A stretch of DNA of 36,259 nt from a virus: IMG/VR virus record IMGVR_UViG_3300026518_000031, positions 1 through 36,259 of that record. One strand, 5' to 3'. The notes below the pieces were generated by a model. That model did no database searches, had not been told where the DNA came from, and worked only from the letters and a program-made list of their open reading frames with translations. Within the stretch, counting starts at the first letter, position 1; each line of letters opens with the position of its first letter. The position numbers were made by a program, and so were the translations under genes. Positions 26,409 to 31,983 of the stretch are shown here, piece after piece.

Positions 26409-26450
26409 GGCTGCCTCCTGTGATAGTTTTTGAGAGTAATTATGAGAAGG

Positions 26451-26526
26451 TGGACGCGGCGGGAGTTGAACCCGCTTCCGGCAGGTGCGCGTCGGCGTTT
26501 CCTGCCGTCTAAACCGTTACGCGCCC
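26451..26526 (-). ncRNA. tRNA-like element with a non-canonical anticodon arm
   Basis: The 76-base element has a full acceptor stem (GGGCGCG at 26526-26520 with CGCGTCC at 26458-26452, one G-U pair). Its T arm is perfect (GCGGG, loop TTCAACT, CCCGC), with A as discriminator. A D-arm-like segment (GTAACGGTTTAGAC) follows the acceptor. The middle instead makes GGCAGG / CCTGCC around a 15-base loop, so no normal 7-base anticodon loop or anticodon can be assigned. It may be a decayed tRNA, a tRNA mimic, or an attachment-site remnant. It lies in the gap between recT and the coiled-coil gene. Confidence 0.5.
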
Positions 26527-27581: not shown

Positions 27582-27610
27582 TTGACAAAACGGGCGAATG
27601 GGTGTATCAT
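27582..27610 (+). promoter_or_regulatory. Rightward promoter of the 27.6-32.9 kb unit
   Basis: TTGACA (27582-27587), a 17-base spacer and TATCAT (27605-27610) form a near-consensus promoter, back to back with the leftward early promoter 32 bases away. Its transcript begins with the structured leader at 27612. Confidence 0.85.
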
Positions 27611-27747: not shown

Positions 27748-27779
27748 GCCCGCGACCGTGGCGAAAAACGGCGAAGGAG
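27748..27779 (+). repeat. Leader element copy 1 (before the 27786 gene)
   Basis: GCCCGCGACCGTGGC, then GAAA, then AACGGCGAAGGAG. GCC can pair with GGC, and CCGT with the downstream ACGG, crossing it: a small pseudoknot candidate ending in the ribosome site. Copies occur at 28046-28077 and 29069-29101. Confidence 0.7.
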
Positions 27780-27785
27780 AAACTC

Positions 27786-27977
27786 ATGGCGAAACACAAT
27801 ATCAACCGCAAGTATGGTCGCAATAAGGCCAAGTGCGAGCGCTATCGCCGCGAACACCGCCGCGAGCGCAACAAACTGCGCCGCATCTTGCAAAGCAACG
27901 GTGAGGCGGCGGCGCGCGCCTATGCCGAACAGCAACACGCGGAATACAAATATCTCCCTGCTCGCAAAGCGGGCTAA
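27786..27977 (+). CDS. Small highly basic protein
   Basis: The protein has 63 residues (MAKHNINRKYGRNKAKCERY). It is almost wholly helical and basic: RREHRRERNKLRRILQSNGEAAARAYAEQQHAEYKY. GAAGGAGAAACTC precedes the ATG. It is the first gene of the rightward unit, so it is probably expressed early. Nucleic-acid binding is likely from charge alone; no family is recognised. Confidence 0.72.
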   Translation: MAKHNINRKYGRNKAKCERYRREHRRERNKLRRILQSNGEAAARAYAEQQHAEYKYLPARKAG

Positions 27978-28045
27978 CGCCATGTGAAGCCGACCCGCCT
28001 TCGGCGGTATGCCCGCGGCGCGAATTTTCCCGACTTTGGTAGCCC

Positions 28046-28077
28046 GCCCGCGACCGTGGCGTAAAACGGCGAAGGAG
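28046..28077 (+). repeat. Leader element copy 2 (before the 28085 gene)
   Basis: GCCCGCGACCGTGGC, then GTAA, then AACGGCGAAGGAG. It is identical to copy 1 outside the variable loop and lies just before the GTG start at 28085. Confidence 0.75.
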
Positions 28078-28084
28078 GCAGAAA

Positions 28085-28411
28085 GTGATTGTCAATCTCA
28101 CCCCACACGAACTGAAGCTCCATGATGAAGGCGGTCGTCTTGTCGCGACCGTCCCCCCCAGCGGACAGGTAGCCCGCGTGCGCACCAGCGCGGTGCGCGT
28201 TGGCGAGGCCGCCGAGGGCGTGCCCCTGTTCGTCACCGAGTTCGGTGACGTGGAGGGTTTGCCCGCGCCGAAGCCCGACACCATCTACGTGGTGAGCGGG
28301 CTGGTGCGCAGCCACCCGCAGGTTGCCGCCCGCGAGGACGTCTACTCCCCCGGCCGCCTGCTCCGCGACGAGCAGGGGCGGGTCGTGGGCGCAGTCGGCC
28401 TGACCCGCTAA
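28085..28411 (+). CDS. Conserved phage/plasmid protein (MIVNLTPHE family)
   Basis: The protein has 108 residues with a GTG start. The pattern MIVNLTPHELKLHDEGG, TVPPSGQVARVRTS, GVPLFVTEFGDVEGLPAPKPDTIYVVSGLV, and the end SPGRLLRDEQGRVVGAVGL is that of a small beta-rich protein widespread in phages, plasmids and actinobacterial mobile elements, without known function. AGGAGGCAGAAA precedes the GTG, following leader element copy 2. Confidence 0.78.
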   Translation: MIVNLTPHELKLHDEGGRLVATVPPSGQVARVRTSAVRVGEAAEGVPLFVTEFGDVEGLPAPKPDTIYVVSGLVRSHPQVAAREDVYSPGRLLRDEQGRVVGAVGLTR

Positions 28412-28471: not shown

Positions 28472-28747
28472 ATGGAAGAACCGCAGGCGTGTGTCCCCCT
28501 AAAAGCATACCACCCCACCGCGCGCCTCACCCTCACCGAACTGCGCGCCGCGGGCTTCATCAGCGCGCAGGGCGGGAAGATTGAGGGCCAGGAGGCGCTC
28601 GCCCAGTGGGGCGGCCACCAGATGCGGGCGGCGCTGCGCTCGCTGATTGCGCGCGGGCTCGTAGTTGTTGAGCGCCCGCGGCACGGGAGCCGCCCGGGTG
28701 TCTACGTCCTGAACTGGGCGGCGCTTGAGCCGGATTTTGCCCCGTGA
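28472..28747 (+). CDS. Winged-helix-like small protein
   Basis: The protein has 91 residues. RLTLTELRAAGFISAQGG, then HQMRAALRSLIARGLVVVERPRHGSRPGVYVLNWAAL, has the helix-helix-wing pattern of a small winged-helix DNA-binding domain, the wing being the VVVERP...GVYVLN hairpin. AAGGAGCCGCT precedes the ATG. It is the last gene before the cassette array and a candidate regulator of this unit; the fold is inferred from pattern. Confidence 0.65.
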   Translation: MEEPQACVPLKAYHPTARLTLTELRAAGFISAQGGKIEGQEALAQWGGHQMRAALRSLIARGLVVVERPRHGSRPGVYVLNWAALEPDFAP

Positions 28748-28760
28748 GGGGTGTATATCC

Positions 28761-28791
28761 GGCTTAATTGACGGTTAATTAATAGTTGGGC
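28761..28791 (+). other. attI-like left boundary of the cassette array
   Basis: GTTGGGC (28785-28791) is a GTTRRRY core and the first base block of cassette 1. Just upstream is an AT-rich stretch with two TTAATT copies 11 bp apart (28764, 28775), unlike its GC-rich surroundings. No paired R'' arm is found upstream, so this is not an attC; an attI-like or secondary target site is the best reading. Confidence 0.5.
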
Positions 28792-28820
28792 GGCTGAAGC
28801 CCAAACACAGGAGGTTTACC

Positions 28821-29057
28821 ATGCAATTACCCAAAAATGCCACGATTGACAGTGCGCAACTGCGCGGCCTTGTCCGCGAGCGTAACATCTACGCGGCGGC
28901 GCTTGAACGCATCGCCGCGCTGACCGAAACAGCGCTTGATGCCACCGACGCGGCCAATGAAGCCATGCGCATCGCGCGCAATGCGCTTGAGGAAGCAATC
29001 AAAGGCCGCCCAACCCCCGCTGCACCGGACTCGGCTGACGCCGAGCCGGTGAGCTAA
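28821..29057 (+). CDS. Cassette 1 gene: small helical protein
   Basis: The protein has 78 residues (MQLPKNATIDSAQLRGLVRE). The body is a charged helix (RNIYAAALERIAALTETALDATDAANEAMRIARNALEEA). The last residues, TPAAPDSADAEPVS, are encoded by attC1 itself and the stop lies inside that site. CAGGAGGTTTACC precedes the ATG. It is carried on cassette 28785-29060. Function unknown; a structural-helix or binding role is possible. Confidence 0.75.
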   Translation: MQLPKNATIDSAQLRGLVRERNIYAAALERIAALTETALDATDAANEAMRIARNALEEAIKGRPTPAAPDSADAEPVS

Positions 29058-29067
29058 ACCGTTAGGT
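29008..29067 (+). other. attC site 1
   Basis: It spans 60 bases from R'' GCCCAAC (29008-29014) to R' GTTAGGT (29061-29067). The L arms GCTGCACCGG and CCGGTGAGC pair with one extrahelical G; an extrahelical A follows 6 bp later; CTCGGC / GCCGAG closes the stem. R'' is the exact reverse complement of the first bases of cassette 1 (GTTGGGC). Confidence 0.88.
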
Positions 29068-29068
29068 T

Positions 29069-29101
29069 GCCCGCGACCGTGGCCTTGTAACGGCGAAGGA
29101 G
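29069..29101 (+). repeat. Leader element copy 3, inside cassette 2
   Basis: GCCCGCGACCGTGGC, then CTTGT, then AACGGCGAAGGAG. It begins two bases after the core of attC1 and leads into the cassette 2 gene. Its paired parts are identical to the two phage copies at 27748 and 28046. Confidence 0.8.
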
Positions 29102-29108
29102 CTATATC

Positions 29109-29492
29109 ATGGAAAATGGTTTTGTCAATCGTGGCTATGTTCGCGGTGGCGCGAACTCTACTGCGAGATTACATTTGCATCTCCACCCGGACATTCCCGA
29201 TGAGCATGGGAATATCCCGGAGAATGAAGCACGCGCGTTGTGTGATGTGCTCGGCGAGAAATTTCCCGGCCTCGAGTTTCATCGGTGGTCTGGGTTGTGG
29301 ACGAAAATAAACACTCGTCGCCAATTTGCTCTAATCCCCGCTGTCATTCGCTTCGCCGCTAAGGCGGGGTGGGACGTCAGTATCTCCATGTGGGATGTCG
29401 GCGTCAAAGGGCAGGTCAAACTGTCCGAGGACCCAGAGACGTTCTGGCGCGAACTCGCCGCCGCGTCACTATGGTATGAGCGGGCAACCTAA
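29109..29492 (+). CDS. Cassette 2 gene: hypothetical protein
   Basis: The protein has 127 residues (MENGFVNRGYVRGGANSTAR). It has LHLHLHPDIPDEHGNIPENEARALCDVLGEKFPGLEFHRW, a long C-terminal helix-strand region (VIRFAAKAGWDVSISMWDVGVKG) and an acidic end. It uses more AT-ending codons than the phage core. The ribosome site GAAGGAG is part of leader element copy 3. The stop TAA lies within the attC2 core ACCTAAC. No family recognised. Confidence 0.75.
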   Translation: MENGFVNRGYVRGGANSTARLHLHLHPDIPDEHGNIPENEARALCDVLGEKFPGLEFHRWSGLWTKINTRRQFALIPAVIRFAAKAGWDVSISMWDVGVKGQVKLSEDPETFWRELAAASLWYERAT

Positions 29493-29613
29493 CCAGCGTT
29501 TGCACCCGACCGCCTGCGGCGTGGCAGAAGCCGCGCCGTGGGCGGGCAATGTCGGTATCAACCCCGTCGCTTCTCGCAAACACGGCGGCGGGTGAAACGC
29601 AAACCCGTTAGGC
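29487..29613 (+). other. attC site 2
   Basis: It spans 127 bases from R'' ACCTAAC (29487-29493) to R' GTTAGGC (29607-29613). Left arm GCGTTTGCACCCGACCGCC pairs with the right arm apart from an extrahelical G and, 6 bp on, an extrahelical A. A long variable terminal structure follows. R'' is the exact reverse complement of the first bases of cassette 2 (GTTAGGT). Confidence 0.88.
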
Positions 29614-29621
29614 ACTTGCTT

Positions 29622-30038
29622 ATGGAACCCAAAGATATTCTCAACAAACTACTCGCATACGAAGACAACTGCGCCGCAGTGCAGCCCGGCGGCAAAGACC
29701 ACGACCTGCGCTCCATGATGATTGATATTATCTTGGATACGCCGCCGGAGGAATGGAGCGAAAATTGGATTTCGTGGCTGATAGATATTGTTGCCTCGCC
29801 GACCGAGTATTTTCCCCTCGTCATCAAGGCGGCAGATGCCCTGCGGCAGGCAGTCGAGGCCGGAAACACCACAGCAGTATGGTGGGACGAAGACATCCTT
29901 GACGCCGTGAAAGATGCCGAAAACAATTTCCCGCTCCCGATAGTGCTTGAGGCACTGTCCAAATTGCGGGCGTGCCTAACACCCGGTGCAGCGGACGGGG
30001 CTTCGCCCCGCGCGAACCAAGGCACCGTAAAGTCCTAA
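29622..30038 (+). CDS. Cassette 3 gene: acidic helical protein
   Basis: The protein has 138 residues from MEPKDILNKLLAYEDN; this ATG lies eight bases after the attC2 core, with only a weak ribosome site. The body is helical and acidic (EEWSENWISWLIDIVASPTEYFPLVIKAADALRQAVEAG, DEDILDAVKDAENNFPLPIVLEALSKLR). The last 18 or so residues (PGAADGASPRANQGTVKS) come from attC3. The size and repeat-like helix pairs would fit an interaction protein. No family recognised. Confidence 0.7.
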   Translation: MEPKDILNKLLAYEDNCAAVQPGGKDHDLRSMMIDIILDTPPEEWSENWISWLIDIVASPTEYFPLVIKAADALRQAVEAGNTTAVWWDEDILDAVKDAENNFPLPIVLEALSKLRACLTPGAADGASPRANQGTVKS

Positions 30039-30097
30039 TCGCATTCGCGGCTGGGCAGCCTTCCCTACCCGCCCCGCCGCTGACCTATCCGTTAGCC
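29974..30097 (+). other. attC site 3
   Basis: It spans 124 bases from R'' GCCTAAC (29974-29980) to R' GTTAGCC (30091-30097). Left arm GGTGCAGCGGACGGGGC pairs with GCCCCGCCGCTGACC apart from an extrahelical G and, 6 bp later, an extrahelical A. R'' is the exact reverse complement of the first bases of cassette 3 (GTTAGGC). Confidence 0.86.
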
Positions 30098-30119
30098 CCC
30101 ACGTGGGCAAAGGAAGGTA

Positions 30120-30329
30120 ATGATGGACGCAGTCGAAATTAACAAAGTCAAAAACGGATACGTTGCTCATCCCCCGTTTGACCCTGCATACTCAAACTTT
30201 TTTCGCTTCGCCAACATGCACGTCTTTGAAACTTTTGACGGCTTGGCCGCATGGCTGCGCGAGCAGTTCGAGGGCGAGCAGGGGCTAACCCCCGCTGCAC
30301 CGGACTCGCAAAGCGAGCCGGTGAGCTAA
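30120..30329 (+). CDS. Cassette 4 gene: small hypothetical protein
   Basis: The protein has 69 residues (MMDAVEINKVKNGYVAHPPF); AAAGGAAGGTA precedes ATGATG, so either Met may be used. The body VFETFDGLAAWLREQFEGE is a strand and helix typical of small single-domain proteins. The end LTPAAPDSQSEPVS is encoded by attC4 and is nearly the same as the end of the cassette 1 protein. No family recognised. Confidence 0.72.
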   Translation: MMDAVEINKVKNGYVAHPPFDPAYSNFFRFANMHVFETFDGLAAWLREQFEGEQGLTPAAPDSQSEPVS

Positions 30330-30338
30330 TCGTTGGGC
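30283..30338 (+). other. attC site 4
   Basis: It spans 56 bases from R'' GGCTAAC (30283-30289) to R' GTTGGGC (30332-30338). Arms GCTGCACCGG and CCGGTGAGC with extrahelical G, then A, and a CTCGC / GCGAG stem with an AAA loop, are closely related to attC1. R'' is the exact reverse complement of the first bases of cassette 4 (GTTAGCC). Confidence 0.88.
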
Positions 30339-30368
30339 GGGCTTCTTCCCCCAGAAAGGAGAACATCC

Positions 30369-30692
30369 ATGAGTTTGGATATTTACCTTGAGACGAATGA
30401 CTGCCTCACCATTCACCACGAGAACATCACCCACAACCTTGCTGAGATGGCTGGACACGCCGGGCTGTATCTTCCTATGTGGCGTCCGGAAACGCTGGGT
30501 ATTAGCCGTGCGTGGCAGTTACGCATGTTTTTAGTGCCAAGCCTTGCGCAACTCAAGATGAACCCAGCCTATTTTCAGACGTTTAACCCAAAGAACGGGT
30601 GGGGCGATTACGAAACACTATTGGAAACAGTGGAAAACTTGCTATTTGCTTGCGAGAGGAATCCGCAGGCCAGGGTGAGGGTAACACGATGA
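30369..30692 (+). CDS. Cassette 5 gene: conserved NITHNL-family protein
   Basis: The protein has 107 residues from MSLDIYLETNDC; AAAGGAGAACATCC precedes this ATG. The pattern ENITHNLAEMAGHAGLYLPMWRPETLGI, LKMNPAYFQTFNPKNGWGDYETLLETVENLLFAC ERNPQA in outline matches a family of about 110-130 residues known from bacteria, phages and mobile elements, without known function. Members often have a Cys-rich insert after the first strand, absent here. It ends six bases before attC5. Confidence 0.8.
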   Translation: MSLDIYLETNDCLTIHHENITHNLAEMAGHAGLYLPMWRPETLGISRAWQLRMFLVPSLAQLKMNPAYFQTFNPKNGWGDYETLLETVENLLFACERNPQARVRVTR

Positions 30693-30697
30693 CGCCC

Positions 30698-30755
30698 GCC
30701 CAACACCACGTCCAGCGGATTCGCCTTCGGCGAGCCGCTGACGCAAGCGTTGGGC
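30698..30755 (+). other. attC site 5
   Basis: It spans 58 bases from R'' GCCCAAC (30698-30704) to R' GTTGGGC (30749-30755). Left arm CGTCCAGCGGATTCGCC pairs with GGCGAGCCGCTGACG apart from an extrahelical C and, 6 bp on, an A. R'' is the exact reverse complement of the first bases of cassette 5 (GTTGGGC). It ends the array. Confidence 0.88.
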
Positions 30756-30780: not shown

Positions 30781-31395
30781 GTGGAAAGCATATTAGGATT
30801 TTTGCTTATCGCAGGTGCGCTGGCTGCGCTGATTGGCGGGTCAATCGCGCAGCCAGGAACAATGTTGTGCTTTGGCGGCTTCGGCGTGTTGTTTTTCATT
30901 GTTGCCGGGGTCGTCAACGGGTTCGGGGCGTTCCGCGATGCCATAAACGACCCCGACCACGCGCCGCCTCCGGGCGGCCTTGCCAAAGCGCGCGATGACG
31001 AAATCCGCCGCCGCGAGGCTCTTGCAGCGGGAGAATACGACCCGCGGTGGCAGGCGGAACTGGAGCGCGCCGCGATGGAGGCTGTGGAAAAATACCGGCG
31101 CGAATACCCAGATGACCATGAGCGCGCCCAGAGGTTGCCAGCACGGTGGGCGCACAAGGCGTTGCGCTCGGCGCGTGAGGCGCGGGCTACCCAATCACGC
31201 GCCTCGCAGGATTACGCTTACAGTTTCCTGCAAAGCGCTACCGGTCATGCCCCTCCTCCCCCACCGCACAGATACCCTGACGGGGGGAGCGAGTTTGAGG
31301 CTAAGGCTGCCCGCGGGTGTGGCATTGTTTTCCTGGCCTTCGTGATTTGGGTTGTAGCAGTCATTAGCCTCGCCGCCGCGGGGGTGCTGCGATGA
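30781..31395 (+). CDS. Membrane protein with three predicted segments
   Basis: The protein has 204 residues with a GTG start (AGGAGGCGCGC upstream), 25 bases after the last attC core. Two N-terminal membrane segments (ILGFLLIAGALAALIGG; TMLCFGGFGVLFFIVAGVV) precede a charged cytosolic region with a helix rich in Arg, Glu and Ala, a Pro-rich stretch, and a C-terminal membrane segment (GIVFLAFVIWVVAVISLAAAG). It overlaps the next gene (ATGA), so it belongs to the phage unit rather than to a complete cassette. Function unknown. Confidence 0.72.
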   Translation: MESILGFLLIAGALAALIGGSIAQPGTMLCFGGFGVLFFIVAGVVNGFGAFRDAINDPDHAPPPGGLAKARDDEIRRREALAAGEYDPRWQAELERAAMEAVEKYRREYPDDHERAQRLPARWAHKALRSAREARATQSRASQDYAYSFLQSATGHAPPPPPHRYPDGGSEFEAKAARGCGIVFLAFVIWVVAVISLAAAGVLR

Positions 31396-31931
31396 GCATG
31401 GAAACGCTCAAGCGCATTATCGCCACAATTGCGGCGTTTGCCGTGTGGTATCTCTCCGCAAAATTCTCGGCGGCTGGGTTTGGGTTCATCATGAACGGCT
31501 ACCCCACCCTCGGATGGACGATGGTGGGCCTGATTACGGCGCTGGAATTGCTGTTCACGGGGCGCGTGCTCAACCGTACCCTGTTCGCCGCTGGCCTCGG
31601 AGCGTATTTTTATAGTATCTACACCAATTTCGTCGGCCTGTTAGACGCCGCGGCAGGCCCAAGCGGCGTGATGCGGTTTTCAGAACATCCGTTTGAGCAT
31701 TTAGGCGTAATGCTCTTGCTGCTTGTGGTAGCAACTTTTTTTGACGTGCTGCCGGAGCCGCTTTTTATCTACGGCGTATTCGGGCCTGAGCGGGCGCGCG
31801 AGAGTGACCCTCTTGGCATCATCATTGACGCACTAACCGGAAATGCACCGTGGTTCAACAGCGCGCCCCGCCCCCAGCGTCCCAAATACCACCGCGCCAC
31901 CACGCCAAAAGGCCGCGTGCGCGGTGCGTAA
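31392..31931 (+). CDS. Multi-spanning membrane protein
   Basis: The protein has 179 residues. Four hydrophobic segments are visible: IIATIAAFAVWYLSAKF, TMVGLITALELLFTG, LFAAGLGAYFYSIYTNFVGLL and LGVMLLLLVVATFFDVL. A basic Pro-rich tail (APRPQRPKYHRATTPKGR) follows. It is translationally coupled to the previous gene. The pairing of two membrane proteins and a membrane-anchored HTH protein suggests one membrane-associated module. No family recognised. Confidence 0.72.
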   Translation: MSMETLKRIIATIAAFAVWYLSAKFSAAGFGFIMNGYPTLGWTMVGLITALELLFTGRVLNRTLFAAGLGAYFYSIYTNFVGLLDAAAGPSGVMRFSEHPFEHLGVMLLLLVVATFFDVLPEPLFIYGVFGPERARESDPLGIIIDALTGNAPWFNSAPRPQRPKYHRATTPKGRVRGA

Positions 31932-31947
31932 TGCTTGTGATAACTTA

Positions 31948-31983
31948 AGCGCCCTGCTCTCACGGGCGGGGCGCTGTTTCTTT
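31948..31983 (+). terminator. Weak terminator-like hairpin
   Basis: AGCGCCC (31948-31954) pairs with GGGCGCT (31969-31975), followed by GTTTCTTT. It lies between two rightward genes and could reduce readthrough into the membrane-HTH gene. Confidence 0.4.

Follow-up and report, generated by a model that had tools for sequence, protein, structure and literature searches.

An integron-type array of five gene cassettes without an integrase gene in the genome of a tailed phage

Introduction

How does a run of integron-type gene cassettes come to lie in a phage genome that carries no integrase gene, and how would its genes be expressed there? This question is raised by the IMG/VR virus record IMGVR_UViG_3300026518_000031, which was analysed over its whole length of 36,259 bases (hereafter the window) and in which an earlier note, made from the sequence alone, had described five short genes in one direction, each followed by an attC site. 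An integron cassette starts with the last six bases of the R' box and ends with an attC site whose R'' box pairs with that start. Here we report that the five cassettes, all in the same orientation, very probably form a cluster of attC sites lacking an integrase (CALIN) in a complete tailed phage, inserted by an integron integrase (IntI) acting in trans and read from the promoter of a phage operon. The promoter, the run of genes and the layout of the array support this mechanism; the act of insertion, the enzyme and any benefit to the phage are inferred.

Results

Five attC sites are found by two methods

We scanned both strands of the window with a grammar of the attC hairpin, consisting of an R'' box ending in AAC, 3 bp, an extrahelical base, 6 bp, an extrahelical A, 4 bp, a contiguous 3' arm and an R' box starting with GTT. 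Five sites only were returned, and they agree to the base with those of the earlier note. The same scan gave no match in 20 dinucleotide shuffles of the window (both strands) and none in other phage contigs (288,548 bases in total). It recovered attC sites of class 1 integrons, including aadA1 and aadB on plasmids, and of phage TJE1; its sensitivity is incomplete, as the blaOXA-10 site and Vibrio repeats were missed. Because a hand-written rule can be tuned to its object, a covariance model (R1) was added. Its training set excluded the window and consisted of 14 attC sites: six of other viral contigs, four of class 1 integrons, and two each of TJE1 and a Brocadia metagenome-assembled genome (MAG). 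With filters off, R1 matched all five sites on the + strand with the E values listed here.

29008-29067, + strand: attC1, 60 bases, R'' GCCCAAC, R' GTTAGGT (grammar scan, R1 E = 3.1e-9, fold)
29487-29613, + strand: attC2, 127 bases, R'' ACCTAAC, R' GTTAGGC (grammar scan, R1 E = 1.5e-3, fold)
29974-30097, + strand: attC3, 124 bases, R'' GCCTAAC, R' GTTAGCC (grammar scan, R1 E = 2.9e-5, fold)
30283-30338, + strand: attC4, 56 bases, R'' GGCTAAC, R' GTTGGGC (grammar scan, R1 E = 7.2e-9, fold)
30698-30755, + strand: attC5, 58 bases, R'' GCCCAAC, R' GTTGGGC (grammar scan, R1 E = 2.1e-9, fold)

Elsewhere in the window, R1 gave weak reverse-strand echoes of two of the five sites, and the next best place reached 7.9 bits (E 9.8). 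On the flanks of the array nothing convincing was found, and no remnant of an attC or attI site scored. Furthermore, folding of the bottom strands gave the attC hairpin and its two extrahelical bases in all five cases, with z from -2.2 to -5.2. In 5/5 sites a distance of 6 bp separates the extrahelical bases, and the top strand has A as the second of them; these features, together with the R''/R' cores, the L arms and the range of lengths from 56 to 127 bases, are as the earlier note had read them, and the covariance search and bottom-strand folding that it proposed as checks both came out in its favour.

The sites bound five exact cassettes

The two ends of a cassette adjoin in its circular form, so the start of a cassette is expected to pair with its own R'' side. 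The own-end complementarity of cassettes 1 to 5 extends over 10, 14, 9, 9 and 11 bases, and that of neighbouring pairs in the array over 3, 6, 5, 3 and 7 bases. The true assignment of starts to R'' boxes ranks at the top of all 120 permutations, with a sum of 53 versus 50 for the runner-up. Since random or phage-intrinsic hairpins would not give such pairing, it counts for cassettes and sets five exactly bounded units, joined at G^TT, over 28786-30749.

28785-28786, + strand: left boundary, G^TT of cassette 1, predicted insertion point AATAG^TTGGGC
28786-29061, + strand: cassette 1, 276 nt, own-end complementarity 10 nt
29062-29607, + strand: cassette 2, 546 nt, own-end complementarity 14 nt
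29608-30091, + strand: cassette 3, 484 nt, own-end complementarity 9 nt
30092-30332, + strand: cassette 4, 241 nt, own-end complementarity 9 nt
30333-30749, + strand: cassette 5, 417 nt, own-end complementarity 11 nt
30749-30750, + strand: right boundary, G^TT

Each cassette holds one short gene in the same direction as its attC site. Without the cassettes, phage genes 28472-28747 and 30781-31395 would be separated by a gap that contains AATAG^TTGGGCAGC. A sixth cassette downstream was considered and ruled out, as no R'' partner for GTTGGGCAGC was found. The claim of an integrase-less integron-type array in a phage is thus supported by R1 and by own-end complementarity, which the earlier note had not used.

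A complete tailed-phage genome holds the array, which forms a CALIN

No match to TIGR02249 (integron integrase) or PF00589 (tyrosine recombinase) was found anywhere in the 36,259-base genome, and PF00589 scored in 14/14 positive-control genomes, which bears out the absence of an integrase gene proposed before. Five attC sites without an integrase constitute a CALIN in the terms of IntegronFinder, and insertion or excision would need an IntI supplied in trans. The array is a CALIN in that it has at least two close attC sites with R''/R' cores of the GTTRRRY type, paired L arms and extrahelical bases, with no integrase near. It is not a complete integron: there is no intI, no attI is recognisable and the promoter belongs to the phage operon.

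The record is a whole IMG/VR entry, and its first and last 165 bases match at 99.4%, by which the genome is taken to be circular or complete. It carries TerL, portal, major head, minor tail and tape measure genes (phrog_2, phrog_104, phrog_3990, phrog_538 and TMP_3) and is that of a tailed phage (Caudoviricetes). The cassettes stand in a rightward run that comprises, in order, a promoter-like sequence, genes 27786, 28085 and 28472 (named by start coordinate), the five cassette genes, genes 30781 and 31392, and a terminator-like hairpin.

27549-27521, - strand: divergent promoter, 12/12 consensus match, back to back with the rightward one
27582-27610, + strand: sigma-70-like promoter TTGACA-17-TATCAT, 11/12 (consensus match only), at the head of the operon holding the cassettes
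27786-27977, + strand: phage gene, preceded by leader copy 1
28085-28411, + strand: phage gene, preceded by leader copy 2
28472-28747, + strand: last resident phage gene 5' of the array, 91 aa, weak MarR/GntR-like helix-turn-helix
30781-31395, + strand: first resident phage gene 3' of the array, 204 aa, own Shine-Dalgarno sequence
31948-31975, + strand: strong terminator-like hairpin after gene 31392-31931 (consensus match only)

The hairpin at 31948-31975 is likely the end of the transcription unit. Upstream of the array, a half-site resembling R'' and L'' (GGCTAACGCCATGTGAAGCCGACCCG) at 27972 is followed by GGTAGCC at 28039 (27972-28045), possibly a decayed attC site after gene 27786. Fragments of this kind after genes 27786, 28085 or 28472 were seen by eye and have no R1 support, and decayed sites are not claimed there. 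Gene 28085-28411 encodes a small protein of phrog_30542 that resembles PADLOC Unk_01 ('sometimes fused to CARF') and also occurs in archaeal virus, Microcystis and Paenibacillus phage records. Outside the operon, at 26448-26526 on the - strand, a match to the Rfam transfer-messenger RNA (tmRNA) family RF00023 scores 59.5 bits over just 79 nt yet covers both ends of the model (1-374). This element resembles the tRNA-like domain and closing stem of tmRNA without the mRNA-like (tag) part, and has a G3-U70 pair as in alanine-accepting tRNAs; ARAGORN gives no call for it.

Four cassette products have no family and the fifth belongs to phrog_4019

28821-29057, + strand: cassette 1 gene, 78 aa, no family; stop inside attC1
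29109-29492, + strand: cassette 2 gene, 127 aa, no family, no homologue found
29622-30038, + strand: cassette 3 gene, 138 aa, no family, no homologue found; stop inside attC3
30120-30329, + strand: cassette 4 gene, 69 aa, no family; stop inside attC4
30369-30692, + strand: cassette 5 gene, 107 aa, phrog_4019, NITHNL motif, function not assigned

The earlier note had recognised no family for four of the five products. None of the five reached a Pfam family, and the fifth falls in phrog_4019. Searches of the phage collection and of IMG/VR gave no relative of product 2 or 3, and plasmids gave none of product 2 either; a match to the cassette 2 product at L198 (L and G numbers are our labels for loci and contigs) was rejected because it falls in ribonucleotide reductase genes. 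A role in defence or counter-defence was considered and set aside, as there was no PADLOC match in 5/5. The cassette 5 product is predicted to adopt an alpha/beta fold (pLDDT 96.8); this model had no PDB match below E 0.07, and its viral structural matches are uncharacterised proteins. The model of the cassette 2 product, made without an alignment, was poor (pLDDT 69.9).

phrog_4019 recurs as cassette cargo

Relatives of the cassette 5 product are typical of phages, with at least 560 confirmed in IMG/VR viral contigs versus just 32 matches in 84,980 genomes. Membership in this phage-typical family points to a phage gene turned cassette cargo. In the phage contig L071/G022, which has terminase and portal genes, a phrog_4019 gene lies between two attC sites and is sense to them; an extra attC site in the same contig (L193:5306-5397, G022) is well over 20 kb from this cassette, which indicates that attC sites can be dispersed within one phage genome. 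In L070 and L100, phrog_4019 genes lie within attC arrays in antisense, and the Brocadia MAG (L153) has one in a cassette. A phrog_4019 gene also occurs near an attC array and an IntI-type gene in virus contig L139/L191 (G023), and orf66 of TJE1, just upstream of the TJE1 CALIN, belongs to the same family. An attC site at E <0.01 was found at 5/80 phrog_4019 loci versus 21/10,705 phages with integron parts (PMC9892861), an enrichment that is suggestive only, as the collections and methods differ.

Cassette 2 carries a leader of the same phage

A 31-nt leader, CCCGCGACCGTGGC-ACGGCGAAGGAG, with a small hairpin and a Shine-Dalgarno sequence, is present in three copies in this phage.

27749-27779, + strand: leader copy 1, before gene 27786-27977
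28047-28077, + strand: leader copy 2, before gene 28085-28411
29070-29101, + strand: leader copy 3, inside cassette 2

The exact pattern has no match in other IMG/VR contigs and gave no clue to the host. As the leader is common to cassette 2 and to genes 27786 and 28085, cassette 2 may have been made in this phage lineage.

Discussion

Proposed insertion by an integrase in trans

The proposed course of events is as follows. During single-stranded stages of the phage DNA, the attC sites of the bottom strand would stand as hairpins, and an IntI supplied by the host, a plasmid or another phage would recognise the folded strand. It would then join the cassettes at a G^TT between gene 28472-28747 and gene 30781-31395. 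The promoter of the phage operon would stand in for the integron promoter Pc, so that inserted cassettes could be transcribed at once.

Several points weigh against this account. In the collections searched, no relative turned up that would attest to movement directly by an array that is absent or different. No public relative shares the region: TerL led to 29 IMG/VR contigs, of which those inspected share little beyond TerL; a search with the major capsid protein gave one candidate with no distinct locus, presumably the window itself; and a search with gene 31994 gave none. DnaB matches spread over many hosts with none singled out. The scores of attC2 and attC3, which have long loops, are lower, the promoter and terminator are consensus matches only, and the phage's own leader in cassette 2 means that at least part of this cassette may be non-bacterial.

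The main alternative, which we consider unlikely, is that the five-cassette run was taken as a block from a bacterial or phage integron by one homologous or illegitimate event and has been inert since. Such events have been suggested for some phage CALINs (Qi et al., 2023, PMC9892861), and the genome has no integrase. In addition, the left flank CGGTTAATTAATAGTTGGGC is loosely like the 3' half of an attC site, with 82% identity to attC4 over 22 nt, mostly in the R' box. However, both ends of the array are exact cassette ends at G^TT, where an illegitimate event would be expected to cut cassettes, and the flanks hold no scoring attC or attI remnant. The exact G^TT on both sides therefore favours IntI, although one multi-cassette event by IntI would look identical.

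It is very improbable that a bacterial integron fragment was joined to a phage contig during assembly. In favour of this reading is that the record is a metagenomic IMG/VR contig; however, the array lies within a closed genome with continuous phage genes on both sides, and the G+C content at third codon positions of the cassette genes is within the range of the phage (z -0.2 to -0.9). The leader in cassette 2, found otherwise only at phage genes 27786 and 28085, ties the array to this phage and likewise speaks against a chimera. Finally, the view that the sites are phage-intrinsic intergenic hairpins (terminators or RNA-processing signals) merely resembling attC is close to refuted: other genes in the cassette-bearing operon also have 3' hairpins and attC sites can serve as weak terminators (PMC9892861), but the neighbouring hairpins have no attC features and no R1 score, the five sites match a model of bacterial and phage attC sites with an identical extrahelical pattern, and the cassettes pair with their own ends.

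The question of where cassettes originate has no settled answer in integron research. Since phrog_4019 recurs as phage cargo and cassette 2 begins with a leader of its own phage, phages could own a cassette pool, in which phage genes would become cassettes in phage genomes and be traded between unrelated phages by IntI; we regard this as doubtful at present. The recurrence of phrog_4019 in unrelated phages and the leader of cassette 2 nevertheless make one answer to the question testable. If cassettes truly enter and leave phage operons, phages would carry the integron cassette pool as well as use it, and unassigned cassette genes would become candidates for phage accessory functions. With the window, the few phage CALINs published so far are joined by an array of five fully bounded cassettes that lies in a closed phage genome, and a small attC model suffices to find such arrays in metagenomic phages.

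Comparison with known systems

To the earlier note, integron parts in phages appeared to be rare, which overestimated their rarity: integrons or CALINs were reported in 21/10,705 phage genomes (Qi et al., 2023, PMC9892861), and several phage contigs in IMG/VR have longer arrays. CALINs are known in the virulent phages TJE1, PH101 and P12002L, and 5/6 virulent-phage attC sites tested recombined with attI1 through IntI1 (PMC9892861). Like TJE1 and PH101, the window has an integrase-less run, in one direction, of attC-bounded single-gene cassettes whose products mostly have no assigned function. Unlike TJE1, whose CALIN has three attC sites and four open reading frames (PMC9892861), the window has five attC sites and five cassettes, whose boundaries are all resolved, and comes from an uncultured phage; phrog_4019 is the only common gene noticed. 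R1 also finds the TJE1 sites, two of which were in its training set. The array resembles class 1 arrays (aadB, catB8, aadA1 and VIM-1; plasmids L189/L190) in attC anatomy, orientation to genes, cassette size and G^TT joints. In contrast to these, it has no intI, no recognised attI and no resistance genes, and transcription must come from a phage promoter.

Phage-like IMG/VR contigs with attC arrays as in the window include L071/G022, L197/G025, L194/G024, L070 and L100, although these five are unrelated to it and their attC sequences differ. The longer viral arrays came from an attC-pattern search, with about nine sites in G024/L194 and about ten in G025/L197. The attC sites point with the genes in the window and in L071, but against them in L070, L100, L194 and L197. 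They are opposed to transcription, the reverse of ordinary integrons, in most of L194:7336-14258, L197:11560-16020, L059, L070, L100 and L153; own-end complementarity is about 8-11 nt in L197, L059 and L153 and less clear in L070, L100 and part of L194. No paper on this orientation was found. The viral contig L139/L191 (G023) has an attC array as in the window but with an IntI-like gene, whose TIGR02249 score of 223.5 bits is below the 265-bit cut-off. An IntI-type gene together with attC sites was seen in two IMG/VR virus contigs, this one (L191, G023:40686-41591) and L199 (G028:6412-7344; 417.4 bits against TIGR02249), and each appears to carry a complete integron. In the literature searched, with preprints and most subscription journals outside the search, we found no study that had screened metagenomic viral contigs for integrons.

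The array of the window is longer and cleaner than that of TJE1 but of the same kind, and it is neither the longest nor especially rare. Taken together, it is a clean example of the CALINs reported in phages in 2023; what is new is the recurrence of phrog_4019 as cargo and the leader common to cassette 2 and phage genes.

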